Shown piece after piece: positions 8,011 to 32,912 of a DNA stretch of 54,362 nt. A program made the position numbers and the translations under genes. Each line of letters opens with the position of its first letter. Positions within the stretch are counted from its first letter, which is position 1. Source of the stretch: Acidiphilium sp. PA (GTDB lineage Bacteria; Pseudomonadota; Alphaproteobacteria; Acetobacterales; Acetobacteraceae); the NCBI RefSeq assembly GCF_026191915.1, contig NZ_JAIMBY010000020.1:1-54362 (forward strand). Reading direction: 5' to 3'. The notes below the pieces were generated by a model that searched no databases, was not told where the DNA came from, and was given only the letters and a program-made list of their open reading frames with translations.

Positions 8011-8142
8011 CTTCCAGTTTCTTCTGGAAGTAACTTCCGCGGCGCATGGCGACGGGACCGGCACCATTGCCGGCGAGCCGCCCTGCCCTGCGGCGCGCCG
8101 GAACGGCGCCGACGCGGGGCCGGGTGGCGCAGGCGGCAATGG
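8011..8142 (-). ncRNA. Structured leader element, copy A (divergent), upstream of the ParB-like gene
   Basis: Minus strand, 5' to 3': closing stem CCATTGCCG / CGGCAATGG (8134-8142 with 8064-8072) enclosing GC-rich hairpins, then a hairpin CTTCCAG-AAGAAA-CTGGAAG (8011-8030) and AAGGGAAACC. It has the same order of parts as the four other copies, but a different closing-stem sequence. A C/A-rich linker of AACCC repeats separates it from the start codon. Confidence 0.45.
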
Positions 8143-8192
8143 AGCGCAGCGGTGCCGGGCACGACACCATGCGATCGGGAACGGATTACCGG

Positions 8193-8819
8193 CTACAGAC
8201 CGGCGAACAGGTCCGGCTGGGCGACCGGGGTCTTGAGCGAGCTCTGGCCGGTCGATGGAACACGTGGTTGCGTAAAGACCCGATCGGCCTGCGTGATCTC
8301 CCCCGGAAAACACTCGCACGCGGTAGCTTTTGTGTCCGCCGGATTGGAGATGTTGGTGTCAGTCGGTCTTTGGGAGAATTTCTGGGCCAGTCGCTGGTAC
8401 TCAGAGCGTTCGCGTGCCTCGCTCTCCTGCGCCAGCAATCGCCGGTGCCAGTCGATCACGCCCGATTGTTTCAACCGGGCGCGGATGACCTGCTCGACGT
8501 CGCTGTAGGTCCAGGCGGGGTCACCGTAGCAGGGGTGGCGGATCGTCTGGTCGAGGAAGTCGATCTTCGTGGCGCGGCTCATGAAGAATTCGCTCCAGAA
8601 ACCATGTCGGTCGTACCAGGCGATATGGCCGAAAGTGTTCGACAGCCGTCCGTAGAATTTCTGGGTGAACATGGTCCCCGGGAAATCCTCCGCGATGAAC
8701 CGGAGCAGATGGTTGCCGAATTTCGCTTTGGTCGGCGCGTCATCCCATTTCGTGGGGGTGAATTGCTCCGGGGTCAGCAGGGGCAGACGGATGGCGCGGG
8801 CGAGCGCGGTGGGGAGCAT
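8193..8819 (-). CDS. Conserved hypothetical protein
   Basis: 208 aa, RBS AAGGAG 7 nt before the ATG. No family recognised. It is soluble, with many aromatic residues in the first 120 residues (FGHIAWYDRHGFWSEFF), a segment WTYSDVEQVIRARLKQSG that looks helical, and a weakly conserved C-terminal third. It lies between the giant methylase/helicase gene and the ParB-like gene on the same strand, so it probably belongs to the same functional module. Confidence 0.75.
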   Translation of the reverse strand: MLPTALARAIRLPLLTPEQFTPTKWDDAPTKAKFGNHLLRFIAEDFPGTMFTQKFYGRLSNTFGHIAWYDRHGFWSEFFMSRATKIDFLDQTIRHPCYGDPAWTYSDVEQVIRARLKQSGVIDWHRRLLAQESEARERSEYQRLAQKFSQRPTDTNISNPADTKATACECFPGEITQADRVFTQPRVPSTGQSSLKTPVAQPDLFAGL

Positions 8820-8891
8820 GGCGATCTCCTTTCGGGTCTCGGTGTCGGTGGAAAGGAATGGGAGGGGCGGGAGGGGGTCGTTCCCCCTCCT

Positions 8892-11800
8892 TTATTCGTC
8901 CTGGTCGGCACCAGACGACGCCGCACCGACATCATCGGTCGGATTGTCATCGAGAGAGGAACGTCGTGCGAACATGGCGGGGAATTCCGGGGGTTGGTCC
9001 CCTGCCCCGCTCGCGTTCGGACCCGCGCCGGTGTTGGCCTCGCTCTCCGTGGCGGCCAACGCCTTGTCGATCGCGGCCAGTTCCGCCAGTTTGGCATCGA
9101 GTTCGCCTTGCAGCTCGAACGGCACCCCGAGCCGCGACTGGTATTCGCTGATGCGATACTCGGCGTTGTGCAGGTCCTCCGAGGCGCGGTCGCGCTGGAG
9201 CTCGAACCGGCTGATCACTGATTCGATTCGGGCGATCACCCCGAGGGCGTTCATCTCATCCGGCATTTCGATCGTGAGGCGCTGGTCGGTCAGATGCAGG
9301 ATCACCTTCGCGTCGTCGATCCCGCCCTGCCTGGAGCGCATCACCCGCAGGCTGAATTCGAACCCGCCGATCTCACCGGCAATCGCCTCCTTCTGCTCCC
9401 ACGCGCTCTCCATGATCGTGCGGATCAGCGCCGATCCGGCATGCTTGCGCTCGGTAAACCGGGTCTCGCCAATGGTCATCGCGAAGGCATCGCCGGTGGT
9501 GTCGATCCGCCGCGCGATGTCCTTCTCAAACCCCGCGATCCGCTTGGTGGCGGTCTCGATCGACCAGCGTGCCTCGTTCAGCGTCCGGCGGATCGAGATC
9601 TGCCCGTCGATATGTGCGTCACTCAGACGACGGAGCCTTGCAAGCTCGGCTTCGAGCCCGGCCTTCTGCATCAGCCGCTGATCGCCCGAGGCAATCGCCT
9701 TGGCCATGGCGAACTGGTTGGACTGACTGTCGGCGTCCTCCAGCCGGCGGATCGTGCGATCACCCGACAGCGACGCCTCGATGAACCGCTGCTTGCGTTC
9801 GTTGTTCTGCCACATCGTCGCATCCATGCTGGTCTGCGTCGCATAGGCGTAGATCGCGATTTCCTCGTTCTGGTTGCCCTGCCGCTCGATCCGGCCTTCG
9901 CGCTGCTCGATGTCCGAGGGCAGCCACGGCACGTCGAGATGGTGCAACGCCACCAGTCGCTTCTGGCCGTTCACGCCGGTGCCCATGGTCTGCGATGATC
10001 CGATCAGGATCCGCACCCGCCCGGCGTTGAAGTCGGAGACCACCCGCTGCTTGTCCGCCGCCTTGCGGTAATCCTGCATGAAGGCGATCTCTGCGGCGGG
10101 CACGCCGCGGGCGACCAGCTGATCCCTGATCCAGCGATAGGCCGAGAAGCCGCGGGTTTTCTCGACGTTCAGCGTGCCGAGATCGGAGAAGATCATCTGA
10201 CCCGCGCCGCGATTGGGGTATTCCTCGCCATCAGGCTGGAGGTATCGCCGCTCCGCCGTGTCGCGCCAGGTCTCGAATACCTTGTCGATCAGGGCGTTCA
10301 GCTTGCTGTCGGGGTCCGGCATCCCGCCCTGGGTCACCAGCCGCAGATCGATCGCGGCGTGGCGGCCATCGGTGATAACCGAGAGCAGGATGTCATCACC
10401 CTTCTGCGGCTTACCCTTACGGGCCTCGATCTCCTTGATCCGCTGGTCGAGGAAGCGCTGGTACATCCGGAAATGTGTGCTGGGTTCGACCGTGACCAAC
10501 TGGCGCTTGCCGGTGGCGATGCGGGGGAGTTTCAGATACTCGCGCAGATCGGCCTTCTGGACGACGTCGGCAAAGCTGCGGAAGATGTCGATCAGTTCCG
10601 GCACGTTGACGAATTCCGAGAACCTGGTGACCGGCTTGTATTGGCCCGACGGCTGGAGTTCGAGATCGGTGCGCGCATCCCCGAAGTTCGCCGCCCAGCC
10701 GTCGAAATGCTGCAACCCCATCCGGGTGAGGATGTCTCCGGCAAAGAAGCGCTGCAGCGTGTAGAGTTCACCCATGGTGTTGGTGATCGGCGTGCCGCTC
10801 GCCATCAGCAGGGCGCGGCCGGGGTTCTTCTGGTCAACGAACCGGGCTTTGACGAACAGATCCCACGCCCGCTGCGAGCCGTTCGGATCGACGCCCTTCA
10901 GGGTCGCCATGTTGGTGGCGAAGCTGAGTTTGCGGAACTCCTGCGCTTCATCGACGATGATCTGGTCGATGCCGATCTCACCGATTGTCAGCAGATCGTC
11001 CTTGTCGCTGCCCAGAGCGTCGAGCCGTGCCTCGAACCCCTCCTTGATCCGCTCGATCCGCTTACGGCTGATCCGGTCGTCGCTGTCCACGCTGGTCAGG
11101 ATCTCTTCCATCGCACTAATCTGGTCCTCGAGCATCGACCGCTCGAAGCTGGCCGGGACGGCGATGAACTTGAATGCGGAGTGGGTGATGATGATGCAGT
11201 CCCATTCCCCCGTCGCGGCGCGGGCGAGGAAGCGCTGGCGCTTCGCCTTGGCGAAATTCGTCTCGTCGGCGACCAGAATGCGGGCGGTCGGGTAGAGCAG
11301 TAGGAATTCGCGGCTGGCCTGGCCAAGGCAGTGACCGGGGACCACCATCATCGCCTTGGTGATCATACCGAGGCGTTTCTGCTCCATCACCGCTGCGGCC
11401 ATCGAGAAGGTTTTGCCGGCGCCGACCGCGTGGGCGATGTAGGTCGCGCCATCGGCGATGATCCGCCAGATCACCCGCTTCTGGTGGGGGTAGAAACTGA
11501 TCACGCTCGATGCACCGGGAAGCGTCAGATGCGAGCCGTCGAAGTGACGGGGCACCAGATTGTTCATCAGATCGTTGTAGATCCGGCAAAGCGTCTCGGC
11601 CCGTTCGGCGTCGGTCCAGACCCAGGATTGAAACGCCGTCTTGATTTTGGTCAGCTTCTCCTTGGCGGCCTCGGTCTCGACCACGTTGAGTTCGCGCCGT
11701 TCTGATCCGCCCGCATCCCGCCAGACGTCCCAGATCTGCGGGATCTGCGAATTCAGCGCGTCGTCGAGCAATTCGCCTGCATGGCGGCGTTCGGTGCCCC

Positions 11801-14135: not shown

Positions 14136-14158
14136 GGCAGGATATCCTCTGGAACGAA

Positions 14159-15000: not shown

Positions 15001-15010
15001 CGGTGCCTCC

Positions 15011-15409
15011 TCAGATCATGCCGAGGGCGAGCAGCCAGGACGGTGCACCGTCCCGCGAGTGACCGTCGGGTTCGACCTCCTCGCCATCGGTGGCTTCGAC
15101 CACGCTGTCGGTGGACCAGCGCTCGATCTCGGTCATCGTGGGTAGGTCGGTGATCGACCGGGCCCAGGCCGGGAGATTGGTGATCGCCAGTGCTGCCCGC
15201 TCGAACCGCTCGGCCTTGATCGCATCGGTATCGGCAGGTGCACGGGTGCGTACCCAATCCGAGCACACATCACGGACATAGACGGCACCGTCTTCGCGGT
15301 AGGAGATGAGGCGGTGGAGTTTGACGCTGAAAAACCGGTAGCGTTCGGGTTCCGCGCCGCTCGGCTGGGATGGCGCGTTGTTATGCAGGATTTCCGGGGA
15401 GGCTGACAT
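15011..15409 (-). CDS. Conserved hypothetical protein
   Basis: 132 aa from the ATG at 15409 (GGAG 9 nt upstream). The longer frame to 15826 reads through the leader element and is rejected. Central segment YRFFSVKLHRLISYREDGAVY looks like a beta-rich core and is followed by DVCSDWVRTRAPADTDAIKAERFERAA. The C-terminus is acidic. Function unknown. First gene of the 15409-14274 set, preceded by leader copy B. Confidence 0.65.
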   Translation of the reverse strand: MSASPEILHNNAPSQPSGAEPERYRFFSVKLHRLISYREDGAVYVRDVCSDWVRTRAPADTDAIKAERFERAALAITNLPAWARSITDLPTMTEIERWSTDSVVEATDGEEVEPDGHSRDGAPSWLLALGMI

Positions 15410-15443: not shown

Positions 15444-15612
15444 GAAATCCTTCGTTTTTCTTTGGATTTCTCGAATCTACCCATCGCGCGACCGCAGCTC
15501 GGCGACGGCAGGCAAGGGCGCGGGGCGGGCGCCTTCGCCCGACCCGCGGGAAACGCAGCCAGGCGCAACCGGCGCTTGCGCCGGTGAGCATGGCGAGGCC
15601 CCACCCCTTGCC
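15444..15612 (-). ncRNA. Structured leader element, copy B
   Basis: Minus strand: closing stem GGCAAGGG / CCCTTGCC (15605-15612 with 15511-15518), P2 hairpin ACCGGCG-CAAG-CGCCGGT, P3 hairpin CGCGGGTCGGGCG-AAGG with a near-perfect partner, a conserved CCTCGCCATGCTC box between closing stem and P2, and a distal hairpin GAAATCC / GGATTTC at 15444-15470. Stem sequences differ from the other copies but keep pairing. Confidence 0.55.
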
Positions 15613-15724
15613 GGCCAAGACGGGTGCGGTAGCCGATTTTCTGTTCCCTCTGTTCAACGCCACTCTCTTCAACGGATCCCGAGCGGTGCCGGCCGCAGAT
15701 CGGATGATCACCAGCTATTCTGAC

Positions 15725-18003: not shown

Positions 18004-19221
18004 TTACGAGAAACTGGCATTGCGACGACGTGTACCAAAGAGTTCTTCATAGCGATCGCGGACGGCGGGGCCGGTCAGATAGTCAGCATCGATGCCAAGC
18101 AGGGCGCTGATCCTGCGGCGGATGCTTGCGAGCATCTCCGCGTCTTCACGGGTCGGCACGATGGTCGGCAAGCCTTTCACGTAGAGCAGATGACGGGGCA
18201 GCCGTGCCTCCAATTGCATCCGCTCGTGGGCAGCGAGCCGGGCCCGCGTCACCGCACGTCGCATATCAGCGTCGAGCAGATGCGGCGCGGTGTCGGCAAG
18301 CCAGCGGTTTCCCTGAAACGCAAAGGTCGATCGGGCTTCGAGATCGACCATGGCGCGGTAGATGTCATGGTTATCCGGGCAGGAGGCGGCGGCCCGGAGA
18401 TCACCGATCGAACTCATGATGCAGAACACGCACGACACGCGGGTCGAGCCGTAGACCGCATAGGCTTCATGGGTCAGACTGGCCGCCACGATGGTCCGCC
18501 AGACGTGCTCGATCGGCCATTCGATGATCGGGTTCCAGACCAGGGCCTCGCGGCGTCTCGTGGCGAGGTTGCTATCGATTGCGCAGACCGGCTTGGCCCG
18601 GCGGGTGGCGCTTTCTTCTCGCCTGATCCCGGTCACGTTCAGGATCGGGCGACCGGGGAAACGTTTGGCCAGCGCCGAAGCGATCACCTTGGTTTTTGCC
18701 TCCGAAGTACAGAACCGCATCGACGGCGTGCTCCAGGGCAGGATCACCTGCACACATTCGAGGGCGGCATAGCGGGCGACGTTGTTGGCCCAGCGCCCAT
18801 TCCACCGGTGCAGCAGATCCCCGGCCTGTCGGCGCACGATGACAAGTTCCCAGCCGATTCGCTCGGCAAGGCGCTGGCAGGACGGGAGACTGTCGCGCCA
18901 CTCCATCCGGCCAAGATCGGCATGGATCAGGATGCGCGGTCCGGTATGGCCGATCACGCTCAGGTGCCGATCCACCGCGATGGCGACCGCGCAGGAATCC
19001 TTGCCGCCACTCACCCCGATTGCGACGGCAGCTTCGTTAGCCAGCAGACGCATGACCTCTGATGTGAGCGCAATCGGCGGGAACGCCGCGTCCAAACCAG
19101 CGCCCGCGTTGCCGTCGATATCGAGGGCCATAATCCCTTGCCGGCGTCTGGTGGGCAGGGGAACGCATCGTTTGCTGTCTCCCCTGCCCTGCTCCGCGCT
19201 TGCGGAGCAAAACGCGTCCAT
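18004..19221 (-). CDS. PAPS-reductase-like PP-loop ATPase, copy 1
   Basis: 405 aa from the ATG at 19221, which overlaps the upstream ArdC stop (TGATG); a GTG one codon earlier is an alternative. PP-loop SGGKDS (about residue 75) binds ATP. Cysteines at RFCTSEAKT and in a C-x2-C-x13-C set (SCVFCIMSS ... AASC) could hold a 4Fe-4S cluster, as in DndC-type proteins. The family includes phage/plasmid PAPS-reductase homologues such as IbrA, which often pair with ParB-like proteins; a ParB-like gene is present at 6108. True sulfate assimilation is unlikely in this context. Paralogue of 23346-24569, differing mainly in the last 15 residues. Confidence 0.82.
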   Translation of the reverse strand: MDAFCSASAEQGRGDSKRCVPLPTRRRQGIMALDIDGNAGAGLDAAFPPIALTSEVMRLLANEAAVAIGVSGGKDSCAVAIAVDRHLSVIGHTGPRILIHADLGRMEWRDSLPSCQRLAERIGWELVIVRRQAGDLLHRWNGRWANNVARYAALECVQVILPWSTPSMRFCTSEAKTKVIASALAKRFPGRPILNVTGIRREESATRRAKPVCAIDSNLATRRREALVWNPIIEWPIEHVWRTIVAASLTHEAYAVYGSTRVSCVFCIMSSIGDLRAAASCPDNHDIYRAMVDLEARSTFAFQGNRWLADTAPHLLDADMRRAVTRARLAAHERMQLEARLPRHLLYVKGLPTIVPTREDAEMLASIRRRISALLGIDADYLTGPAVRDRYEELFGTRRRNASFS

Positions 19222-19725
19222 CACGCAGCCGTCGCAACAGATGAGGCCTCGTCGCCGGCGTCGTCCACCGCCTCTCCCGGATCGACGTCGTTGTCATCGT
19301 CTCCCGCGCCCGGTCCCACTGCCGCTGCCGCTCGCACCGCAGCGGCGTAGTCGGGATGAAAGCCGAGGATATAATCGGCCGCGCGCGGTGCATCGGCCGC
19401 CGCGCGGAAGATCGCCTTCCTGTCGGACCTGATGACGGTCATCCAATCGGCAAGGTAGCTGGCAGTATTCTCGATCTCGGCCTGCACGCCGACCACGGTG
19501 CAGATGTTCACCGAGGCGATCTAGACCATGAGTTCCTCGAACGCATAGGCCGCCGAGCCAAATCGCCCGCTTTGGCTCAGGTCGAGCCGGGGTACCGCGT
19601 ATACATAATGGGCGAGTTCGTGGAACGCAGTATCGGCGAACGCCGCATCACTCCTGAACGCACCTTTCGGTGGCAGGTAGACGCAGTTCCGTGACGGGAC
19701 GAAACAGGCTTGCGAGCCGCCGTAG
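19221..19725 (-). pseudogene. ArdC remnant, copy 1: 5'-truncated with an amber codon
   Basis: Aligns with the C-terminal half of the intact ArdC at 24569-25624. It keeps the peptidase HELAHY motif and the GRFGSAAYAFEEL region, then hits TAG at 19521-19523 exactly where the intact copy has TCG, and continues in the same frame (IASVNICTVVG) to the end. Similarity to the intact copy ends near 19725, inside YGGSQACF, next to an IS66-like remnant. The gene is dead by both truncation and nonsense. Confidence 0.85.
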
Positions 19726-23345: not shown

Positions 23346-24569
23346 TCAGGTTCCGGCGGGCCGATCGGGCTTCGCGGCAATCAGGTCGCCATACCGGTCG
23401 CGGACGGCGGAGCCGGTCAGGTAGTCGGCGTCGATGTCGAGCAGCGTGCTGATCCTGCGGCGGATGCTTGCGAGCATCTCCGCGTCTTCATGGGACGGCA
23501 CGGTGGTCGGCCAGCCTTTGACGTAGAGGAGATAACGGGGCAGCCGTGCTTCGATGCGCATCCGCTCGTGGGCAGCGAGCCGGGCCCGCATCACCGCACG
23601 TCGCATATCGGCGTCGAGCAGATGCGGCGCGGTATCGGCCAGCCAGCGGCTTCCCTGAAAAGCAAAGGTCGAGCGGGCTTCGAGATCGACCATGGCGCGA
23701 TAGATTTCGTGGTTCTCCGGGCAGGAGGCGGCGGCCCGGAGATCACCGATCGAACTCATGTTGCAGAACACGCACGACACGCGGGTCGAGCCGTACACGG
23801 CATAGGCCTCGTGGGTCAGACCGGCCTCGCTGATGGTCCGCCAGATCTGCTCGATCGGCCATTCGATGATCGGGTTCCAGACGAAAACCTCGCGGGTTCG
23901 GGTCGTGAGGTTGGTATCGATCGCGCTGATTGGCTTGCCGCGCCGGTTTGCACTCTCCTGCCGTCTGATCCCGGTGATGTTGAGGATCGGGCGATCGGGG
24001 AAGCGTTTGGCCAGCGCCGAAGCGATGATCCTTGTTTTCATTTCGGAGGTGCAGAACCGCATCGAGGGTGTGCTCCAGGGAAGGATCACCTGCACGCATT
24101 CGAGCGCGGCATAGCGGGCGACGTTGTTGGCCCAACGCCCGTTCCACCGGTGCAGCAGATCCCCGGCCTGTCGGCGTACGATAACCAGTTCCCAGCCGAC
24201 CCGCTCGGCGAGGCGCTGGCAGGCGGCGAGACTGTCGCGCCATTCCACCCGGCCGAGATCGGCGTGGATCAGGATGCGCGGACCCGCGTGGCCGATCGCT
24301 TCCAGATGACGATCTACCGCGATGGCGACCGCGCAGGAATCCTTGCCACCGCTCACGCCGATTGCAACGGCGGCATCAGCGGCCAGCAGACGCGCGACTT
24401 CCGGGGTCAACGCGATCGGCGGGCATTCGGAATCGCAGCCGGTGCCGGCGGAAGTGTTGGCAACGGTGTCGAGCGGGAGCGTCCCTTGCCGGCTTTTGGT
24501 GAGCGGGAGGGCGGATCGTCCGCTGTCCCCCCTGCCCGGCTCCGCGCTTGCGGAGTACGGCAGATCCAT
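23346..24569 (-). CDS. PAPS-reductase-like PP-loop ATPase, copy 2
   Basis: 407 aa from the ATG at 24569 (TGATG overlap with ArdC; GTG at 24572 also possible). It has the same SGGKDS loop, RFCTSEMKT and CVFC ... SC cysteines as copy 1, and near-identical sequence over the central 330 residues. The ends diverge: this copy finishes RYGDLIAAKPDRPAGT. Because this copy keeps intact ArdC upstream and two small genes downstream, it is probably the functional one. The likely activity is ATP-dependent adenylation/thiolation chemistry on a nucleic acid or small thiol; the substrate cannot be read from sequence. Confidence 0.82.
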   Translation of the reverse strand: MDLPYSASAEPGRGDSGRSALPLTKSRQGTLPLDTVANTSAGTGCDSECPPIALTPEVARLLAADAAVAIGVSGGKDSCAVAIAVDRHLEAIGHAGPRILIHADLGRVEWRDSLAACQRLAERVGWELVIVRRQAGDLLHRWNGRWANNVARYAALECVQVILPWSTPSMRFCTSEMKTRIIASALAKRFPDRPILNITGIRRQESANRRGKPISAIDTNLTTRTREVFVWNPIIEWPIEQIWRTISEAGLTHEAYAVYGSTRVSCVFCNMSSIGDLRAAASCPENHEIYRAMVDLEARSTFAFQGSRWLADTAPHLLDADMRRAVMRARLAAHERMRIEARLPRYLLYVKGWPTTVPSHEDAEMLASIRRRISTLLDIDADYLTGSAVRDRYGDLIAAKPDRPAGT

Positions 24570-25624
24570 CACGAAGCGGTGGCGAGAGGTTCGGAAACAG
24601 GCCTAGCCTGGTCGTCGAACTCGTCGAGCGTGTCTCCCGGATCGCCGTCGCCGTCCTGCTCTCCCGCGCCGGCTTCGTTGGCCGCTCGCACCGCAGCCGC
24701 AAGGTCGGGATGAAAGCCGAGGATGTAATCGGCCACGCGCTGTGCATCGGCCGCCGCGCGGAAGATCGCCTTCCTATCGGACCTGATGACGGTCATCCAG
24801 TCGGCCAGGTAGCTCGCGGTGTTCTCGATCTCGGCTTCGACGCCGACTACGGTGCAGATGTTCACCGAGGCGATCGACACCACCAGTTCCTCGAACGCAT
24901 AAGCCGCTGAGCCGAACCGACCACCCTGGCTGAGGTTCAGCCGAGGTGCCGCATAGGCATAATGGGAGAGTTCATGCAGCGCCGTATATGAGAAGGCTGC
25001 ATCGCTGCGGAACGCGCCCTTGGGCGGCAGGTAGATGCAGTCCCGTGATGGCACGAAGCACGCTTGCGAGCCGCCGTAGTGGATGGTGGCACCGCTGTTG
25101 TCGAGGATCGTCTGGACCGCCTCCGGCGTGCGCCACGGCTCGGCTGCGATTCCCGGTGGGTTATAGACGGGAATGCCGTCGATCTGGGTCGCATGAAAGA
25201 CGGTGGAGGCGCGCAGCATGAAGAACGGTCGTGCCCCCTCCCCTGCGGTCTCAGGAGAAACGAGACCCGTCTCCCCGTCCTCGCCGCCCCGCCGCTGGAG
25301 CTTGCGGTAGAACACGACGGTGGTGCCGCGTTCGCCCTTGCGGACCTGCCAGCCACGGGCTTGCGCCTGCCGATATGAGCACCAGCGTGGATCGCCGTTG
25401 AACGCCGCGTCTTGCATCATGCCGAGCAGGAGGGTGTTGATCCCGCGATAGGCCCGCCCCGTCGTCGGGTTCATCGGCGCGCCGGCGAGGCCCTGATCCC
25501 AGCCGCGTTGCCACGGCAGCACGCCGCGTTCCAGAGCAGCGAGGATCTTGTCGGTCACCTCCTGGTAGATGTCGCGGGGATTGGGATTGGGTTTGCCGGA
25601 GCGCCGCCATTTTGGTTTGTTCAT
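24569..25624 (-). CDS. ardC: ArdC-family antirestriction protein with zincin domain
   Basis: 351 aa from the ATG at 25624, which directly abuts a hairpin holding AAGGAG. N-terminal ArdC ssDNA-binding domain (IYQEVTDKILAALERGVLPW, PTTGRAYRGINTLLLGMM, GERGTTVVFY; residues about 15-140). C-terminal metallopeptidase-like domain with HELSHYAY (HExxH) and GRFGSAAYAFEELVVSIAS. ArdC proteins protect incoming conjugative DNA from restriction. The protein ends in an acidic tail. The longer frame to 25801 runs through leader copy C and is rejected. Confidence 0.9.
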   Translation of the reverse strand: MNKPKWRRSGKPNPNPRDIYQEVTDKILAALERGVLPWQRGWDQGLAGAPMNPTTGRAYRGINTLLLGMMQDAAFNGDPRWCSYRQAQARGWQVRKGERGTTVVFYRKLQRRGGEDGETGLVSPETAGEGARPFFMLRASTVFHATQIDGIPVYNPPGIAAEPWRTPEAVQTILDNSGATIHYGGSQACFVPSRDCIYLPPKGAFRSDAAFSYTALHELSHYAYAAPRLNLSQGGRFGSAAYAFEELVVSIASVNICTVVGVEAEIENTASYLADWMTVIRSDRKAIFRAAADAQRVADYILGFHPDLAAAVRAANEAGAGEQDGDGDPGDTLDEFDDQARPVSEPLATAS

Positions 25625-25778
25625 CGGTGTTTCTCCTTTCCTGAAACACCGTTCGCCGGCCGCGTCGGGGCGGGCGGGGCAAGGGCGCGGGACGGGCCGC
25701 TTGGCCCGTCCCGCGGGAAACGCAGCCACGCGCAGCCGGCTCTGGCGCCGGCGAGCATGGCGAGGCCCTACCCCTTGC
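25625..25778 (-). ncRNA. Structured leader element, copy C, abutting the ardC start
   Basis: Closing stem GCAAGGG / CCCTTGC (25772-25778 with 25679-25685); CCTCGCCATGCTC box; P2 GCCGGC / GCCGGC; P3 a perfect 13-bp stem CGCGGGACGGGCC with loop AAGC; distal hairpin CGGTGTTTC / GAAACACCG (25625-25651), whose loop carries AGGAAAGGA and whose last base touches the ATG. The last hairpin would expose or hide the ribosome site. Confidence 0.6.
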
Positions 25779-25843
25779 GGCGCGCGACCCGCATGCGGCA
25801 TTGCTTCCCGCTCGCGGCGGAGATCGCTTTCATGTCTGCTGTC

Positions 25844-27160
25844 TCAATCGTGACCGAAGACCCGAACCACCTTGAACGATTGCCAGGGGTCACCCGCCGG
25901 GCCGGTCGGCGCGGCCAGCGCGAGGATCGCGGCACGGTCGAGCACCGGCCGATCGGCGCGAAGATTACGCGGGGCTGCGTGATCGCGCTGGGAGAACGGT
26001 AAGCCGAGCTTGATCGCCCGCTTCGAGACGATCGTTGGATCGCGCCGCATCACCTTGGCAAGATCGATTATCGAGACGCCTGCCGCATGGGCGATGCGGA
26101 TCAGGAGATCTTCATCCGGGGTCCAGTCCCGGCAGTAGCCATGATCCAATCCGAGGGTGAAGGCGCGGTTGTAGACGGCGGATTTCGGCCGATCGAGCAG
26201 GCCTGCGAGTTCGCCCGTCTTCATCCGGCCTCTGCCGTAATTCGCCCGGAGCATTTCATCGTCTGCCTCGCTCCAGGGGCGGCCCTGGCGTGCGCCGTTG
26301 GGCTTTGGGTGGGTGCCTGACAGGTTGAGTTCTGCGGCTTTCCAGCGGATCGAATGACGCGATCGGCCGAGCCGGTGACTGAGCGCCACCAGATTGTCGC
26401 CGGTCTGATAGGCTTGGCGCAGGAGATCGCATTCCTCCTCGATCCAGGGTCGACCCCAACCCCGGTGATAGCCGCTCGCGGCGATGAACGCCTGAAAACT
26501 GCTTTCCGCGCGAAAGGGGAATCCCTTGGCGGCGAGCTTGCGGCGGATCACCGGTTAGAGATACCCCTCCTCGGCAAGTTTGAGCGCAAGGGCCTGTTCA
26601 TCGGGATGCCAGGGCTTTGGTCCTTCTGGCCGCCGCAGACCGAGATGCGACGCCCGACTGATCACCCCGGAGCCAGGGCGGCCGAGACGCGAGGCGATCT
26701 CGGCAATCGTCGCATCTGTCGTGTAGACCGCTCGAAGAACGGCATCTTCGGCTTCCGACCACAGCGGAGGTGCCGCCTTCGTCAGACCGAGAAGCCCGGC
26801 GCGGACGTAAACAGCCGGCAGACCACGTTCAAGGCGGAGCGCAAGTGTTGCAGTCGGCACGCTGCCGTAGTCCGTGATCAGGACACGGTCCTCATCTTCG
26901 GTCCATGGCCGAAAGTTCGGGCGATAGAGGCCCAGTTCCCAGGCTTTGTCTTTCACCGTCTCGATCGTGCGACGGACGGCAATCGCGATCTCCTCCCAGG
27001 ACGCATCTGCGCCGAGCATATCCCGGAGCGTATCGAGTTCCGCCGGCATCCAACCTCGCGTGTGGTATCTGATCTCTCGCACCAGGATCATCTCTGCCGG
27101 TGTGGTTAGCACCCGGTCCGCAGTCGCGGGATCGAGCGCCACGATCTCGTAATCGCCCAT
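25844..27160 (-). pseudogene. SANT/Myb-like repeat DNA-binding protein split by an in-frame TAA
   Basis: Two open parts, 27160-26555 (201 aa) and 26551-25844 (235 aa from a GTG), are in the same frame and separated only by TAA (26555-26557) and one codon. Together they hold about seven repeats of the type W-x2-E-E/D-D-x2-L ... IA-x2-L-x-R ... A-x2-LGL, as in GcrA/Myb-type DNA-binding modules. The TAA falls inside one repeat (PWHPDEQALALKLAEEGYL, stop, then PVIRRKLAAKGFPF). The GTG has no well-spaced RBS, so this is best read as one roughly 437-codon gene with a nonsense mutation. Two separately translated proteins are the alternative. Confidence 0.7.
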
Positions 27161-27161
27161 G

Positions 27162-28523
27162 TCAGGACAAGCCCACGATGGGTGTATCGGCGATCAGGGT
27201 GCGCAGCGCCGCAGCCAGGCGCACGACGCGGCAGTCGTCGCGCGGCAGCGCGTCGATCATTCGCTCCCCGATCAGCAGATCGATCGCCTGATCGAGGATT
27301 GCCGGTTCGATCGCGAGCTTGGCGGCGATCTCCGTGGTGGTCGTGGCATTGGGAGAGATCCGCTTCAGGGTTTGGACGATCGTGCCCGCAACCGGCGCGA
27401 GGTCGTTGAGCAGGAACAGGCTGAGCGCCAGTCTGCCTCTGCGGTCGGGACGATGGTCGCTGGCCGCCGCGGCGGGCAGGCGATCGAGATCGAGCCGGTC
27501 GCGGGCGTCGGCGTCACTCATCCGTGCCCCAGGCATCGGTGTGGGTGTCGCGCCGACATGCGGGGTGGACCCGATCGCGACGTCGACCGTGACCGCCTCC
27601 CGTGCGAAGGCCGGGCCGATCGCGAAGAACCGTCCTGCCGGCAGTGTGCGCAATTGGCAGGCTTTCTGGTAGGGGAACCCGAGGAGATCACCGGCGCGCG
27701 CGACGTCCCGGTCGTAGACGTTCAGGCCGAGCAGGTGATTGTGGCATTCGCTGACCACGGAACTCGCGAGCTTCGCCAAACGCTGTGTTGCGATCACCGG
27801 TCCAAGGCCACGCTTGCGGCCCCGCGCACAGAGTTCGGTGAGGGTGGCGATCCCGAGGCGGCGGATCTCGGCGTCGCGCCCCGAAGCCGCAAGATGCGGG
27901 GCGATCAGATGGGCCTCGTCGATCGCGACCAGCATCGTGTGCGGCCAGTGTTCCCTGGGTGCGGTCAGCAGGCCGTTCAGGAAGGCGGAGGCACGGACGA
28001 TCCGTTCGTCGGGTGAGAGATCGCTCAGGTCGAGATGCACCGAGAGCCGGTGCCGCCGGGCATTGAGTGCCACGATCGCGAGCCCATCCGCAGCGACGAC
28101 GGCCGCCCGGATCGTGGGAGCGCCGATATGAGAGGCCAGGTTGGCGAACTCGGCTTCCGGATCGAGCAAGGCGATCGCCGTATGAGGATGTGCCTGCTCG
28201 ATGATATGGCGGAGCGCCATGGACTTGCCGGCGCCGGCCGATCCCTGGATCAGGCATTTGTAAGCGATCAACCGGGAGAGATCGACGTCGAGTGTCCCGC
28301 GCGGCGTCTTGCCGAGGGTGAATCGCGGCCCTTTCAGGCTCGGTGCTGGCGATGAACCGGCACGCGCGATCGTTGCGGGTGGTGGATCGGGTTCTTCGAT
28401 CATGCCGCGGTCGCGCAGCAGGGTGCGAAGCGCCGGGGTGGTCGGGAAATTATCATCGTCGGGGCGGACGATGCGCGGCCGTTCGAGCGCCTTGTCGGGC
28501 GCAGGATGTAATCTTGCGGGCAT
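27162..28523 (-). CDS. HerA/VirD4-type P-loop ATPase
   Basis: 453 aa from the ATG at 28523 (GGAG 8 nt upstream). Walker A GSAGAGKS (about residue 100), Walker B MLVAIDEAH (about 205), and RGRKRGLGPVIATQR, the motif region of HerA-like DNA translocases. The C-terminal 100 residues resemble a winged-helix (TTEIAAKLAIEPAILDQAIDLL). It probably acts as a DNA-pumping hexamer in transfer, repair or defence; no NurA-like nuclease is adjacent. It is followed by the SANT/Myb-repeat gene with 1 base between. Confidence 0.8.
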   Translation of the reverse strand: MPARLHPAPDKALERPRIVRPDDDNFPTTPALRTLLRDRGMIEEPDPPPATIARAGSSPAPSLKGPRFTLGKTPRGTLDVDLSRLIAYKCLIQGSAGAGKSMALRHIIEQAHPHTAIALLDPEAEFANLASHIGAPTIRAAVVAADGLAIVALNARRHRLSVHLDLSDLSPDERIVRASAFLNGLLTAPREHWPHTMLVAIDEAHLIAPHLAASGRDAEIRRLGIATLTELCARGRKRGLGPVIATQRLAKLASSVVSECHNHLLGLNVYDRDVARAGDLLGFPYQKACQLRTLPAGRFFAIGPAFAREAVTVDVAIGSTPHVGATPTPMPGARMSDADARDRLDLDRLPAAAASDHRPDRRGRLALSLFLLNDLAPVAGTIVQTLKRISPNATTTTEIAAKLAIEPAILDQAIDLLIGERMIDALPRDDCRVVRLAAALRTLIADTPIVGLS

Positions 28524-28570
28524 GTGATGTCTCCGGGACAGCGCCGAGGAAGGATGCGGCATGTTGAAAC

Positions 28571-28599
28571 GCCAACGCGCCCTCGTGGGGCGCGCTGGC
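28571..28599 (-). terminator. Rho-independent terminator
   Basis: On the minus strand, GCCAGCGCGCCC pairs with GGGCGCGTTGGC. One pair is G-U on this strand but would be A-C on the other, so the minus strand is the transcribed one. GTTTCAA follows. It ends the 29826-28679 unit. Confidence 0.65.
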
Positions 28600-28678
28600 A
28601 GGGTTGAATTCGTCGGAGTAATTCGGATCAGGACCGGAACGTCGCGTTCACAATGACGTCGTGGTCACAATGACGCGG

Positions 28679-29173
28679 TCAGGGAGCGGTTGTGTCTCGA
28701 TCTCGCCGTTCACGCTCATCGCGCCAATGCTGTTCGAGCGCACGGGCGATTTCGGCACGGGGTTGAACTGCGCGGAACAACGCGAAGGCTGGTGCGCCGG
28801 CGACTGCGTTTTGGTCGAGCGCTTCGAGGCTGGCTGTCACGCCGCGGTTCGGGTGTCCAGTCTCGTCGTTGTAGTCGGTAACCAGCTGACGGAAACCCGG
28901 ATGGTCACGATATTCCTGCTCGAGCCGGGCGATCCGGGCGGCGTGGTTCGGCAAGGTCTTGTCGACCGTCTCGGTCGCCGTGGCAGGCAGGTTGGGTTTC
29001 TGCGCCTGCGTTGCCTGTCGAGCCTGCGCTTTAGCCGCACGACGATCGGCAGTCTGAACCAGTTGGGTGATATCCGGCCGTGCGGTGGTCCGGCCCGATG
29101 GCGCGCGCTCACGACCATAGAGGAAGACGACAGCGCAAAGGCCAAGCCCGAGAATGAGGGTGGAACGCTTCAT
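28679..29173 (-). CDS. Membrane-anchored or exported hypothetical protein
   Basis: 164 aa. An N-terminal hydrophobic segment (STLILGLGLCAVVFLYG) serves as signal anchor, followed by an Ala/Gln/Lys-rich helical region and a second helical domain (FRQLVTDYNDETGHPNRGV; FALFRAVQPRAEIARALEQH). No family recognised. It overlaps the upstream gene by 4 bases, so the two are co-translated. Confidence 0.65.
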   Translation of the reverse strand: MKRSTLILGLGLCAVVFLYGRERAPSGRTTARPDITQLVQTADRRAAKAQARQATQAQKPNLPATATETVDKTLPNHAARIARLEQEYRDHPGFRQLVTDYNDETGHPNRGVTASLEALDQNAVAGAPAFALFRAVQPRAEIARALEQHWRDERERRDRDTTAP

Positions 29174-29826
29174 GGCACGGTGCCTATTTTCGGCCGATCG
29201 GCATCGGCTGGCAAATGAATTTCCGAACCCGGCGTTCCATCTCCGTCGATGTCGACCCAGTCCGCGTCATTGCCAAGGCTGGCTGGCAAGCAGAATATCC
29301 TGCGCTCAGACCAGTTGAAGATCGTCGCGCTGCCCAGATCCACCCAGCCGTCATCGTTGGACCAGTAGCCACCTCCCTGCCCCATCTGACTCTCGTTCGG
29401 TGAATAGATCATGAAGCGCTTGCCGGCCTGGATCATCTCGTCGATCCAGTCGCCGCAGTGAAAATCGCCGATAACCTCGCCGGCGCCGAGATCGAGGACG
29501 CAGGCCCCGCCACTGAAGGCGTCGAGGACTGGCCGCGAGCAGACATAGGCCCAGCTAAACCCCCAGCGACCGCGGAGCTTGAAGCGCTTGGCGCAGGCAA
29601 GAACGTAATTGATGACATGATCGGGATCGCCCATGCCATCACCGTCGTGGATCCAGACGCCGCACGGTGAATCCTCCATCGGGTCGGCTGCCACCTCGAA
29701 GCAGACGATATCGCCGTGTCGCGCCATCAGACGCTCATAGGCGGCAAACAGTCGCACGGAGCGGGCGGCATTGCCGGTCGAGCCGGTATCGAGCCGGCAG
29801 GAAAATCGTGTGGAATAGTCGGCCAT
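29170..29826 (-). CDS. Conserved hypothetical protein
   Basis: 218 aa, beginning just after a terminator hairpin, with CGGAGC 8 nt upstream. Soluble and rich in Trp, Gly and Asp, with repeated short acidic loops (WIHDGDGMGDPDHVINYVLA; WVDIDGDGTPGSEIHLP) that look like beta-turns but not EF-hands. FKLRGRWGFSWAYVCSRP is a likely core strand pair. Function unknown. First gene of a two-gene unit. Confidence 0.65.
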   Translation of the reverse strand: MADYSTRFSCRLDTGSTGNAARSVRLFAAYERLMARHGDIVCFEVAADPMEDSPCGVWIHDGDGMGDPDHVINYVLACAKRFKLRGRWGFSWAYVCSRPVLDAFSGGACVLDLGAGEVIGDFHCGDWIDEMIQAGKRFMIYSPNESQMGQGGGYWSNDDGWVDLGSATIFNWSERRIFCLPASLGNDADWVDIDGDGTPGSEIHLPADADRPKIGTVP

Positions 29827-29847
29827 GAGAAAAAGCTCCGTGAATGA

Positions 29848-29874
29848 AAAAGCCCGGTGCGAGATCGGGCTTTT
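29848..29874 (-). terminator. Bidirectional Rho-independent terminator
   Basis: AAAAGCCCG and CGGGCTTTT form a 9-bp stem around a 9-base loop, with T/A runs on both sides. It ends the minus-strand operon 31244-29899, and the next gene begins only 22 nt further on. Confidence 0.8.
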
Positions 29875-29898
29875 CGGAATGAGAGGGAAAGCTGACGA

Positions 29899-30171
29899 TC
29901 AGCCGCCGGGTTGGGGATGGATGCGGTCATCGTCGAACGGGACGGCCTCGATGACCTGTTCCCTGCGGCGGGCAGTGACCCGGTCGATGTAGGCGATGAT
30001 CCCTTCGCGCCGATCGTCGGTGTCGATGTGTTCGGGTTGACTGGCTGATTCCATTGCGTGTTTGGCCGCGACCTTCGCCGCCTCGATGGCCGCGGCATCG
30101 CTGTTCGCCTCGATCGCGATGCTGTCGTAGGCGCGTAGCCAGAAGCCGAGCTTCACGATGTATTCGGTCAT
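29899..30171 (-). CDS. Small conserved hypothetical protein
   Basis: 90 aa, 4-base overlap with the DUF6915-like gene upstream. The start TEYIVKLGFWLRAYDSIAIEA then a helix DAAAIEAAKVAAKHAM looks like a small beta-alpha-beta domain. Last gene of the 31244-29899 operon, just before a terminator. Function unknown. Confidence 0.65.
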   Translation of the reverse strand: MTEYIVKLGFWLRAYDSIAIEANSDAAAIEAAKVAAKHAMESASQPEHIDTDDRREGIIAYIDRVTARRREQVIEAVPFDDDRIHPQPGG

Positions 30172-30551
30172 GATCCGGTTCCTTCCAGAATGTCGCGGCC
30201 CAGCGTGCTGCGCGGTCCCATCCAGGCTTCCGGCCGGATTGCGCGCACCCAGTCCGCGAAACTTGGAATGCGACCGAGGTCTTCTTTCACGTGCTGTTCG
30301 GCGATCAGCCGGACCGGAACGATCCGGCCTGCGCTGTTGGTCAGAACGTGACCGAACACGCGCTCGGTGATGTAGATGCCGTTCGAGTGGTGGAGTGCAG
30401 CGCGGTGCCGAAAGTCGGCGACTGCTGCCTTGCTGGAATCGAGGAAGTCATGGATCGCTTGGTAGTCGTCGGGTGAGCCGCCCCACTGACGGGCGGATGA
30501 CACCGCATGGTGGTACGGGTGTGCCACGGGGCCCTCACATCTCGTGTTCAT
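30168..30551 (-). CDS. DUF6915-like protein
   Basis: 127 aa. Motifs: HPYHHAVSSARQWGG, YQAIHDFLDSSKAA, RHRAALHHSNGIYITERVFG, RLIAEQHVKEDLG and PSFADWVRAI. The dense conserved His/Asp/Glu pattern suggests a metal-binding HD-like fold. I recognise the family (DUF6915 type) by pattern, not by search. It overlaps its upstream neighbour by 17 bases. Confidence 0.7.
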   Translation of the reverse strand: MNTRCEGPVAHPYHHAVSSARQWGGSPDDYQAIHDFLDSSKAAVADFRHRAALHHSNGIYITERVFGHVLTNSAGRIVPVRLIAEQHVKEDLGRIPSFADWVRAIRPEAWMGPRSTLGRDILEGTGS

Positions 30552-31092
30552 AGTAATTTGTTTCGGTGTAGCGTTCGTTCATCTCCAGCCGGATCGTCTC
30601 GCTCTCGACATCGAATCCGCACTCACCGAATCCGCCGTCGTTGTTCTCCCATCCGTCGTGCTTTGCGCCGATGAAGTCCCAGAAGATCTCCTCGATGATG
30701 TCCTGGATCAGGGATGATTTTTCGATTTCCTGGACTTCATAGCCGGCGCAGCGCTGCCCGCTCGGTGTCTCCGAACAGGGTTCATATCGTTCTTTCATCG
30801 TAGCGAACGGATAGGGGATAGGTTCCGCCGGCAGATCGATCGGCTTTTTCTCCGCGTCGTAAGCCTCGACCGATTCGATCTGGCCGCTGTCGCCGTACCC
30901 ATCGAACGTCACGGTGACGCGCGTGATCCCGGCAGCTTTCAAGGCGCCGAACAGGATCGGTTTGGCTTTTCGCAGGATCGAGCTTTGCAGTTTCTGGAAC
31001 TCGGTATGTGCCGCCGTGTAGTCAGCAATCACCGCGGTCGCGGTGGCAACCGATGCCGGTTCGACCGTCGGTGTGGTGGAATGATCGCTCAT
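30535..31092 (-). CDS. DUF6878-like protein
   Basis: 185 aa from the ATG at 31092, which overlaps the small membrane-protein stop (ATGA). Motifs: VTVTFDGYGDSGQIESVEAY and DGWENNDGGFGECGFDVES followed by TIRLEMNERYTET, matching the DUF6878 pattern; a strongly acidic protein of unknown role. The longer frame to 31401 lies in leader copy D and is rejected. Confidence 0.7.
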   Translation of the reverse strand: MSDHSTTPTVEPASVATATAVIADYTAAHTEFQKLQSSILRKAKPILFGALKAAGITRVTVTFDGYGDSGQIESVEAYDAEKKPIDLPAEPIPYPFATMKERYEPCSETPSGQRCAGYEVQEIEKSSLIQDIIEEIFWDFIGAKHDGWENNDGGFGECGFDVESETIRLEMNERYTETNYYEHEM

Positions 31093-31244
31093 GGGGTGGT
31101 CTCCGTCTGATGGGTATGGGGGAAGAGAACGATGGTGGAGCTGCTCGCGCTGAGCAGGCCCGGCGCGATGGCGGCAGCGAGCAGGATCGCGAGAACGATC
31201 AGGAATTCGAGCGTGCCGCGCAGGGTTGTCTTGATGAGTTTCAT
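31089..31244 (-). CDS. Small single-span membrane protein, first gene of the DUF6878 operon
   Basis: 51 aa. AAAGGAAAATCC precedes the ATG at 31244. A short basic N-terminus is followed by one hydrophobic segment (LEFLIVLAILLAAAIAPGLL) and a 20-residue polar tail. Its stop overlaps the DUF6878 start (ATGA). The RBS, coupling and a near analogue at 32630-32791 support it as real. Function unknown. Confidence 0.6.
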   Translation of the reverse strand: MKLIKTTLRGTLEFLIVLAILLAAAIAPGLLSASSSTIVLFPHTHQTETTP

Positions 31245-31256
31245 GGATTTTCCTTT

Positions 31257-31409
31257 CATCTTCTTCGTGAAGATGTCCGGATCGCGGCCACGGCGGTGCC
31301 GGGCGGGACAAGGCTGCGCAAGGGTGCGGAGCGCCCGCAGCGCAGGACCAGAGCCACGCACAGCCTGCCCTCCGGGGCAGGCGAGCATGGCGAGGACCCA
31401 CGCCTTGCC
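31257..31409 (-). ncRNA. Structured leader element, copy D
   Basis: Closing stem GGCAAGGC / GCCTTGTC (31402-31409 with 31307-31314; one G-U pair and one pair flipped relative to copies B and C), CCTCGCCATGCTC box, P2 perfect GCCTGCCC-CGGA-GGGCAGGC, P3 CTGCGC / GCGCAG with inner hairpin, and a distal hairpin CATCTTC-ACGAA-GAAGATG (31257-31275) just before the RBS of the small membrane gene. Confidence 0.6.
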
Positions 31410-31451
31410 CCGCACGGACCGACCGTGGCAGCCGGGCCTACACCGATCGGT

Positions 31452-32123
31452 TCAGGCGACGGTTTGATCCACCCTCATCAACGTTGGCGTCGCTGACGTC
31501 GTGCGTTCAGCGGTTTCGATTTCAGCCGTTGCGAGCACACGTCCGCCGATCCGGTATCGGCCGCCAAGCGGATGGTCTCCGGCATCGACCGGCCGGAAAG
31601 CGAGGATCATTCGTCCCCGCCATGACATAGCTTCAGCGATGAACCTGTCGTAGCTGGCCCCATCGGTAAACCGGAGCGGGGTTGCGAACCGGATGCGGGT
31701 ACCGCTGACGATGCGCGCTTGCTGCCGCCGCACGCCGGCTTTGCGCTCCCGAGCGGCAGCAACCCGTGCCCGCCAGTCCGCCGCATATCCCGCGCCGGGC
31801 AGTTGATCGATCGGGGTCAGCAAATTCATGATCCCGACCGGGCAATCGACCTCGCAGGGACCAACCGACTCGTCCATCGACTTGTAACCGAAATCGCCAT
31901 CGCGGCCCATTTGCGTCAGGTACACATAGGCCACGGTGTATGGCGTCTGATCGGGAATGCTGATCAGCACCGCCGCATACCAGGTCGAACCGACGAAGGC
32001 GGATTTGACCACCTTGATCTCGGCTTTTCCCGGCTTGTCGGCGATCTGCTCGATTTCGCTGCGCAAAAACGCATCCTTGTCGGCGGTGCTACGACCACCG
32101 ATCGGTTGATAAAACCATCCCAT
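31452..32123 (-). CDS. DUF6927-like protein
   Basis: 223 aa from the ATG at 32123 (AAAGGAGTCCC upstream). It starts MGWFYQPIGGRS, then KIVKSAFVGSTWYAAV-like strands, YTVAYVYLTQM, and CEVDCPVGIMNLLTPIDQLP; the C-terminal third is an OB-like basic region (GTRIRFATPLRFTDGASYD). The pattern is that of DUF6927. It sits 54 nt after a terminator hairpin. Function unknown. Confidence 0.65.
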   Translation of the reverse strand: MGWFYQPIGGRSTADKDAFLRSEIEQIADKPGKAEIKVVKSAFVGSTWYAAVLISIPDQTPYTVAYVYLTQMGRDGDFGYKSMDESVGPCEVDCPVGIMNLLTPIDQLPGAGYAADWRARVAAARERKAGVRRQQARIVSGTRIRFATPLRFTDGASYDRFIAEAMSWRGRMILAFRPVDAGDHPLGGRYRIGGRVLATAEIETAERTTSATPTLMRVDQTVA

Positions 32124-32176
32124 GACGGGACTCCTTTGAGAGGGGTTAAAGCAATCCCCCACCCCGAAAACGCAAA

Positions 32177-32196
32177 GCCCGCCGATAAGGGCGGGC
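32177..32196 (-). terminator. Rho-independent terminator
   Basis: Minus strand GCCCGCC / GGCGGGC with a 6-base loop, followed by TTTGCGTTTTC. It closes the unit 32791-32238 and lies between it and the DUF6927-like gene. Confidence 0.7.
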
Positions 32197-32237
32197 CTGG
32201 CGGTTCGAGGGTGGGCAGGTGGCTGCGGATACGTGGC

Positions 32238-32633
32238 CTATTCGTATGAGGGCCGTATCCTCGGGAAATGCGTCGGCATGCTCTGGGCGCGCATGACCCG
32301 GACATCGTATTGCCCAACCGAGTTGGTCTGCGAGATGTCAGGACGGGCTTGGTTCACCTCGGGTAGTTTCATCCGCATTTGCTGCGCGTGGACGTTGGCC
32401 GCAGCGATGGTGCAGAAGCCCGCCGGGGCGGCCCCAAGGGTTTCATAGACCCACGGGTCGATCGCGAGGATGCCGGTTTGATACCACCATCCTCCTTCCT
32501 CGGGGCCGCCGTAACTCAGGTCAATCAGGAAAACCGCAACCCAGTAGAGGCCGGCCCCTTGATCATCGTCGGGACCGGACTCGTAATCGGTAGCCGTGGC
32601 CGGTGGCGCTTCGACATCAATGGTATCGATCAT
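32238..32633 (-). CDS. Conserved hypothetical protein
   Basis: 131 aa from the ATG at 32633, overlapping the small membrane-protein stop (ATGA). An acidic N-terminus precedes LYWVAVFLIDLSYGGPEEGGWWY and a helix-rich second half (FCTIAAANVHAQQMRMKLPEV) ending in an Arg-rich tail. No family recognised. The arrangement mirrors 31244-30535, a small membrane protein coupled to an acidic protein. Confidence 0.6.
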   Translation of the reverse strand: MIDTIDVEAPPATATDYESGPDDDQGAGLYWVAVFLIDLSYGGPEEGGWWYQTGILAIDPWVYETLGAAPAGFCTIAAANVHAQQMRMKLPEVNQARPDISQTNSVGQYDVRVMRAQSMPTHFPRIRPSYE

Positions 32634-32791
32634 CGCACTACCTTCCCACTCGGCAGGGTGACCGCCGGTGCGGGCAAGAGCGTGATTTCCGGCTTCGCGA
32701 GGATGACGGCGAGCAGGACGCCCCCCGTCAGAAACAAGATCACTGCGGCGAGACGTCGCATATCCAGCGATGAGATTGATTTTGATTTCAT
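32630..32791 (-). CDS. Small single-span membrane protein
   Basis: 53 aa; CTGAAGGAAAGTCAG precedes the ATG at 32791. A basic N-terminus, one hydrophobic span (LAAVILFLTGGVLLAVILA), then a short tail. Translationally coupled to the next gene. Analogue in layout to 31089-31244. Function unknown. Confidence 0.6.
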   Translation of the reverse strand: MKSKSISSLDMRRLAAVILFLTGGVLLAVILAKPEITLLPAPAVTLPSGKVVR

Positions 32792-32805
32792 CTGACTTTC
32801 CTTCA

Positions 32806-32912
32806 GTCTTCTCCTTGAAGACCCCCTCCTCCGGCCGCATCGGGGAGACCGGGGCAAGGGCGCGCCAGGGCGCCTGCGCCCGCAGCGCGGGAGCGCAGCG
32901 ACATCCCCTTGC
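32806..32912 (-). ncRNA. Structured leader element, copy E (short form)
   Basis: Closing stem GCAAGGG / CCCTTGC (32906-32912 with 32854-32860) with GC-rich inner hairpins. The CCTCGCCATGCTC box and P2 are missing. The distal hairpin GTCTTC-AAGGA-GAAGAC (32806-32822) precedes the RBS of the small membrane gene. Confidence 0.5.

Follow-up and report, generated by a model that had tools for sequence, protein, structure and literature searches.

A stretch of 54,362 nt from Acidiphilium sp. PA (positions 1 to 54,362 of contig NZ_JAIMBY010000020.1; the window in the following) carries on its minus strand several copies of a branched, covarying element in front of ardC and other genes. With a probability of roughly 0.43, as judged from sequence, this element is a signal in single-stranded DNA (ssDNA), folded by the template strand of the downstream gene on the strand transferred in conjugation, which would drive early expression like Frpo of F-type plasmids in action, although with a different structure. 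In this model the core of the element and its outer stem would sit before genes that plasmids need on entering a new cell. The template strand of the downstream gene would enter the recipient and fold as ssDNA, and this fold would let the gene be expressed ahead of second-strand synthesis. Transcription would start about 20–35 nt past the core, between the outer stem and a distal hairpin, which would be the 5′ hairpin of the mRNA. This reading builds on a covarying structure, on its fixed place and direction before particular kinds of genes, on loops, mismatches and an outer stem that are all biased in strand, and on the finding that the element mostly shares the strand of relaxase genes.

Structure of the element and its copies in the window

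Five places, named A to E here, had been described as copies by a first-pass annotation. They were read on the minus strand, folded and cut into segments, and a covariance model (R1) was built from eight copies of the same genome, B, C and D included. Written on the strand of the downstream gene (the gene strand), the core of about 60–110 nt consists of a stem, P1, and two arms, P2 and P3, and the outer stem P0 closes the whole. P1 has about 8 bp and covaries, reading GGCAAGGG/CCCTTGCC in copy B and GGCAAGGC/GCCTTGTC in copy D; CAA/TTG is kept in it, the three letters of TTG at 95, 87 and 93 of 105. The CCTCGCCATGCTC box is, as described, exact in copies B, C and D. The base of P2 is a helix formed by two GGTCC strands, which enclose a T-T or G-T mismatch. 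This base helix is absent from the model, and its partners change jointly (GCTCC/GGTGC, GGTGC/GCTCC, GTTCT/GATCC). Beyond it, GCCATGC/GCGTGGC follows, then the internal loop TC/TGC, and P2 ends in a hairpin that varies; one T-G pair of P2 is conserved on the gene strand in 91 of 98 rows of alignment A4 and in 52 of 52 rows of A5. In some loci (L080, L082, L083, L111, L120, L122) the module GCCRTGC-TC/TGC-GCGYGGC is doubled inside one arm. P3 is a variable hairpin. Both flips that had been pointed out, one of a P1 pair in copy D and one in P3 from C-G in copy B to G-C in copy C, are present.

The two arms of P0 pair with a mean of -26.9 kcal/mol, versus -19.7 kcal/mol for swapped arms (n = 105), and in about one third of the loci they do no better than swapped arms (33 of 105 rank below the best fifth). 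Perfect distal hairpins of at least 6 bp follow 39 of 114 non-redundant copies, where 15.1 would be expected from shuffles. They do look like an mRNA feature: read on the gene strand, purines make up 72% of their loops, and some hairpins hold the ribosome site, as in the ardC copy, whose hairpin ends next to the ATG as had been noted. All five distal stems are present as originally written. The features of the window are as follows.

15511–15612, minus strand: core of copy B (P1, P2, P3), before the 132-aa gene; 103.0 bits with R1, training copy
15491–15632, minus strand, limits approximate: copy B plus outer stem P0, by flank pairing
15444–15470, minus strand: distal hairpin of copy B, GAAATCC/GGATTTC, by sequence
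15011–15409, minus strand: 132-aa gene behind copy B, without Pfam match (open reading frame (ORF) and Pfam scan)
25678–25779, minus strand: core of copy C (P1, P2, P3), before ardC; 107.3 bits with R1, training copy
25659–25800, minus strand, limits approximate: copy C plus outer stem P0, by flank pairing
25625–25651, minus strand: distal hairpin of copy C, ribosome site in the loop, end adjoining the ATG (sequence, fold)
24569–25624, minus strand: ardC, domains ArdcN and MPTase-PolyVal (Pfam, scanned as the longer ORF 24569–25801)
31307–31409, minus strand: core of copy D (P1 with flipped pair, P2, P3); 82.5 bits with R1, training copy
31287–31431, minus strand, limits approximate: copy D plus outer stem P0, by flank pairing
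31257–31275, minus strand: distal hairpin of copy D, CATCTTC/GAAGATG (sequence, distal-hairpin scan)
31092–31244, minus strand: 51-aa membrane-like protein behind copy D (ORF call)
32853–32913, minus strand: core of copy E, short form without P2; 25.9 bits with R1, E 0.0023, not a training copy
32833–32935, minus strand, limits approximate: copy E plus outer stem P0, by flank pairing
32806–32822, minus strand: distal hairpin of copy E, GTCTTC/GAAGAC, by sequence
8011–8142, minus strand: claimed copy A, before a ParB-like gene, a long hairpin and distal stem; by the model no member (R1 with filters off, 8.4 bits)
6108–7970, minus strand: ParB-like gene (ParB_N domain), likely start 7970 (Pfam, scanned as ORF 6108–8162; sequence)

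Judged by R1, one family comprises four of the five places claimed as copies, namely B, C, D and E. The E-value of copy E refers to a search over 173,805 bases, in which two paralogues of this copy scored 23.9 and 22.8 bits; a linker, GTCGCTGCGCTCC, stands where its P2 would be. Copy A gave no R1 match in the window at E up to 5. With filters off, the top score on positions 7950–8190 (241 bases) was 8.4 bits (E 0.056). Since copy A, which has the long hairpin and the distal stem only, falls outside the family, the count of five is unsupported; P1, box, P2 and P3 are shared by B, C and D, and E lacks P2. In the own genome, R1 found 15 matches at E < 1e-9, the eight training copies among them, and three short ones at E 0.06–0.34, spread over seven contigs. 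The repeat is beyond chance.

Covariation and comparison with Rfam

In alignment A4, 94.7% of the cells were paired, and the covariation score was 0.458 versus 0.116 for shuffled and at most 0.078 for slid pairs. Significance was assessed with a tree-based null of our own design, after the idea of R-scape; the resulting E-values are coarse because 20 simulated alignments were used per case. Out of 2,926 column pairs, 17 reached E ≤ 0.05 when the alignment was fitted by the model; 16 of these belong to the 28 model pairs, while the remaining one, 13-56, is a pair of the P2 base outside the model. A structure-blind MAFFT alignment gave 9 of 3,486 column pairs at the same threshold, all within P1, P2 or P3. 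The conserved secondary structure with compensatory change, at a fixed place before gene groups, is real as the first-pass annotation had proposed, and it survived the comparison with background which that annotation had named beforehand as one of the tests that could overturn it. Covarying stems above the phylogenetic background are, however, without power to tell RNA from ssDNA. As folded ssDNA covaries likewise, the earlier conclusion that a DNA element is excluded does not follow.

Rfam scans agree with the earlier impression of an undescribed family, and the match to a known family that had also been named as grounds for rejection did not occur. The window yielded two group II intron hits and nothing at the element, copy C at E ≤ 5 only three sub-threshold chance matches, and eight loci of relatives at E ≤ 1 only one tRNA. 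In a scan of sixteen loci the hits were two tRNAs and one suhB, all away from the element. No published report of the element was found in the literature searched. ARAGORN calls the element at L062:1501–1587 a tRNA, a false positive and thus a hazard for annotation.

The strand that folds

The loops of the core lean to the template strand. In a set of 219 distinct hairpins from cores, loops of the type C(GNA/GNNA)G occur 41 times on the template strand and 8 times on the gene strand, and in 57 cluster representatives the ratio is 30 to 2. GNA loops alone give 29 versus 6, or 19 versus 5 under a stricter stem; GNA-type loops make up 2% of 5,016 background hairpins. G(CTTG)C loops are also confined to the template strand (9 to 0), and the gene strand shows no c(UNCG)g and two GNRA loops. 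GNA and GNNA loops are described, in the part of PMC4686876 available to us, as extraordinarily stable DNA mini-hairpins.

The outer stem points in the same direction. Its specificity amounts to -10.3 kcal/mol on the template and -7.3 kcal/mol on the gene strand (-7.0 versus -4.8 under DNA parameters), the gene strand being better in 25 of 105 cases. On the gene strand its mismatches are A-C rather than G-T (170 versus 90, compared with 902 versus 698 for swapped arms), and pyrimidine-pyrimidine prevails over purine-purine; on the template strand they are therefore G-T and G-A. The claim that the folded molecule is RNA is consequently not established, as the types of loop and mismatch point rather to the template strand, which may be the one that folds in the cell. 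Fold energy alone was discarded as a strand test: for the whole element the difference is slight (-80.6 kcal/mol for the template versus -78.6 for the gene strand, the latter lower in 38 of 105) and does not settle the strand. Of three F plasmid stretches, two folded with lower energy on the template strand, a sample too small for use. The distal hairpins, with their purine loops on the gene strand, carry the opposite sign to the core, for which reason a transcription start is predicted between the two folds.

The strand that is transferred

Relaxase genes of the TrwC and MobA_MobL kinds were compared in 40 of the 85 carrier genomes, on contigs below chromosome size that hold both a relaxase and the element, and the strands were tallied by hand. 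Among the matches listed, the element shares the strand of the relaxase on 22 of 26 contigs. Four named plasmids are concordant by their relaxase gene, and pSH1 additionally has mobC on the other strand. According to the available part of PMC11541004, the relaxase lies in the lagging region and anti-defence genes lie on the T-strand. With the element on the relaxase strand, the template of the genes behind it is therefore the transferred strand. The F plasmid itself has the same layout of relaxase and leading genes.

Position before genes and distribution

In five annotated plasmid stretches of Komagataeibacter, Acetobacter, Gluconobacter and Kozakia, copies with an annotated coding sequence (CDS) behind them lie on the strand of this CDS, 34–168 nt ahead of it. 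One Komagataeibacter copy is found 28 nt past the stop of a helicase gene and 68 nt ahead of ParB, and some intergenic copies leave little space for an additional promoter. No CDS is annotated within 1.9 kb of one Lichenicola copy, in a region for which the gene table may have gaps. One copy in Neorhizobium overlaps an annotated GNAT gene at the latter's end. A mechanical start finder placed a gene after 125 of 161 list entries, with a median distance from core to start of 79 nt (quartiles 62–104); some places are entered twice in this list and some of its gene calls are surely false.

Of 62 non-redundant downstream proteins 48 were scanned with Pfam, 14 seemingly false calls being left out. 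Matches were ArdC (6), ArdA (3), SSB (2), ParB_N (2), DUF6878 (2) and DUF6876 (2), and the single ones included DNA methylases, DUF2958, PAPS reductase and AAA. These are the leading-region and anti-defence kinds of gene described in PMC11541004, as far as the available part of that paper goes.

Other copies have no gene directly behind them (L059, L060, L062, L064, L067, L068, L070, L071, L083, L084, L094, L096, L103, L112, L116–L118, L137, L157, L170, L130). By eye, P0 is followed in these by a purine-rich 8-mer that occurs twice as a direct repeat; the two agree with each other at one locus, but the 8-mer differs from locus to locus. Several of them sit behind genes which were read, without a family search, as transposases of the IS256, IS110 or IS21 type.

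The search for a wider family which had been suggested was fruitful. In Acetobacteraceae, the family having been set by named relatives, R1 matched in 34 of 200 genomes; a further covariance model, R2, matched in 85 of 397, which belong to 33 of the 102 genera searched. Among 385 genomes of the class, R2 with strict filters detected the element in 2, of which one is the own genome. These filters probably lose copies, since an exact pattern finds many genera: in a species-genome collection it gave 42 stretches, among them Rhodobacteraceae, Bradyrhizobium, Brucella, Neorhizobium and Methylobacterium as well as two metagenome bins named Scalindua and Nitrosovibrio. A shorter pattern was found in 11 viral contigs. 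Plasmid records with the element come from Acetobacter, Komagataeibacter, Gluconobacter, Rhodovastum, Lichenicola, Kozakia, Shinella, Jeongeuplla, Paracoccus, Geminicoccaceae and others.

Relation to known systems

The element resembles the Frpo/ssi ssDNA promoters of F and ColIb-P9 in standing before leading-region genes (antirestriction, SSB, ParB-like, methylase) with the transferred strand as template. Both features, the template strand on the 22 contigs mentioned above and the kinds of genes, are found here. It differs in having no -10 box in the expected window and in its GC-rich, branched fold, a distinction drawn by structure and not by sequence comparison. A canonical Frpo was therefore rejected: P1 keeps TTG, but the -35/-10 pair is not present because the -10 box is absent.

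The radC motif (RF01754) is likewise a candidate cis element of Proteobacteria, and several copies of it can share a contig. Its neighbours include antirestriction and methylase genes. Its consensus fold, however, is another one and has a uucg loop. No RF01754 match was obtained in the window, in copy C (E ≤ 5), in the eight loci (E ≤ 1) or in the sixteen loci. In 60 genomes no overlap with places of the element occurred among the matches listed, and a search of 190 genomes of the class gave nothing, the control genomes likewise giving no match. In the same family, one contig (G037:C6, with L222, L242 and L243) holds four RF01754 copies, two of which precede ATG-starting ORFs within about 100 nt. 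The STAXI motif is reported near ssb, antirestriction, topoisomerase and XerDC integrase genes, in the available part of PMC2864571 (Weinberg et al. 2010), and thus shares the ssb and antirestriction context. In the same part of that paper it is described as tandem pseudoknots in which UUCG loops are frequent; the authors read these loops as a sign of RNA, having also weighed a role of ssDNA. The present element has no UUCG loops on the gene strand, and the Rfam scans of the window, copy C, eight loci and sixteen loci contained no STAXI match.

Alternative explanations

Several observations weigh against a template-strand ssDNA signal. The conserved T-G pair of P2 becomes an A-C mismatch on the template strand. 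The core as a whole has 22 G-U versus 30 A-C cells in A4 and 33 versus 12 in A5; since these counts show no preference for the template strand, the core departs from P0, whose own bias may come in part from one inherited internal-loop motif. No -10 box was found, the best TATAAT match at spacers of 15–19 reaching 1.71 of 6 versus 1.81 in shuffled sequence. Regarding transfer, the element lies opposite to the relaxase on three of the 26 contigs listed (G762:C250, G135:C2, G629:C10) and on both strands on one (G022:C2), eight of the 22 concordant contigs among the matches listed belong to a single genus (g61), and some carriers are typed as non-mobilizable. Finally, about one fifth of the list entries (36 of 161) have no called gene behind them, and several further calls look false.

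A serious rival, which we regard as quite possible, is a structured 5′ leader RNA of the radC/STAXI kind. Working in cis, it would respond to a protein or ligand by changing translation, mRNA stability or antitermination, with the conserved internal loops of P2 as its binding site. The fixed distance to start codons (median 79 nt, 125 of 161 entries) fits with it, as do the strong covariation, the conserved wobble pair on the gene strand, the excess of G-U over A-C in A5 (33 versus 12), and the distal hairpins with purine loops and, in some cases, a ribosome site. The radC motif has similar neighbour genes, and so does STAXI according to the available part of PMC2864571. Outside the fixed pair, however, G-U cells are few (22 of 2,547 and 33 of 1,272) when compared with 11 of 324 in thiamine pyrophosphate (TPP) riboswitches of Acetobacteraceae, a control with a poor alignment of 11 pairs only; a tRNA control gave 13 of 160 cells from seven calls, one of which is the miscalled element of L062. 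Loops typical of RNA are nearly absent, pyrimidines abound in the internal loops of the gene strand, P0 has its greater specificity on the template strand, and terminators are scarce near the element. Intrinsic terminators, also considered as an explanation in their own right and rejected, were found downstream on the gene strand at 1 of 106 copies and upstream on the other strand at 2 of 106, a lower bound because the finder missed one with a longer spacer (L137).

The same evidence from loops and P0 would also suit an ssi-like site for initiation or priming of the complementary strand in the recipient, whose place before genes would then be a side effect. Several copies per plasmid and the absent -10 box agree with such a site, but it leaves the tight distance to start codons and the recurring choice of the same gene kinds unexplained, and we consider it unlikely. 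Even less probable is a mobile palindrome similar to repetitive extragenic palindromes or miniature inverted-repeat transposable elements (REP/MITE), without function for the gene behind it. The many copies per genome, and the gene-less ones adjoining genes read as transposases, recall such repeats; against them stand the uniform direction relative to the gene across the annotated plasmids that were examined, covariation in three stems and internal loops that change slowly. The free direction and distance to genes typical of such repeats is not seen in the five plasmid stretches.

Three further candidates were discarded. A leader peptide was rejected because the arm lengths, by eye, vary freely. 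Pairing of the CCUC of J1 with a Shine-Dalgarno sequence was rejected because these letters vary together with their partners in the P2 base. CsrA/RsmA sites in the gene-less copies were rejected by eye because GGA is not kept.

Other features of the window

Group II intron parts recognised by Rfam lie on the minus strand at 40878–45829, and this region also contains a reverse transcriptase piece (40956–41801, minus strand) and a serine recombinase gene (42259–44508, plus strand). A direct repeat of about 1.5 kb (18036–19587 and 23378–24941) has pieces that are 72–89% alike and PAPS-reductase-like genes in both copies. A tandem duplication of 54 bp, 96% identical, is found at 48026–48133.

Biological meaning

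Early expression from an incoming plasmid before the second strand is made is understood mainly through the example of Frpo on F-type plasmids. This question becomes directly testable elsewhere with an alphaproteobacterial element that is widespread, stands where Frpo does before the same kinds of genes and bears strand-specific signs of folding. If the ssDNA reading is true, the element would be a so far unrecognised signal for early expression. It is a bolder and rather doubtful proposal that it represents a second, independently evolved conjugation-triggered ssDNA switch across alphaproteobacterial plasmids, which would combine a branched DNA fold with DNA-type mini-hairpin loops, be active only while the transferred strand is single and start transcription without ordinary -35/-10 recognition. 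If the element is RNA after all, it would represent a plasmid leader RNA of a new family, and the context shared with radC and STAXI would call for one explanation. Comparing loops between strands, GNA/GNNA on one against UNCG/GNRA on the opposite one, may be of use in telling RNA from ssDNA for other covarying motifs.

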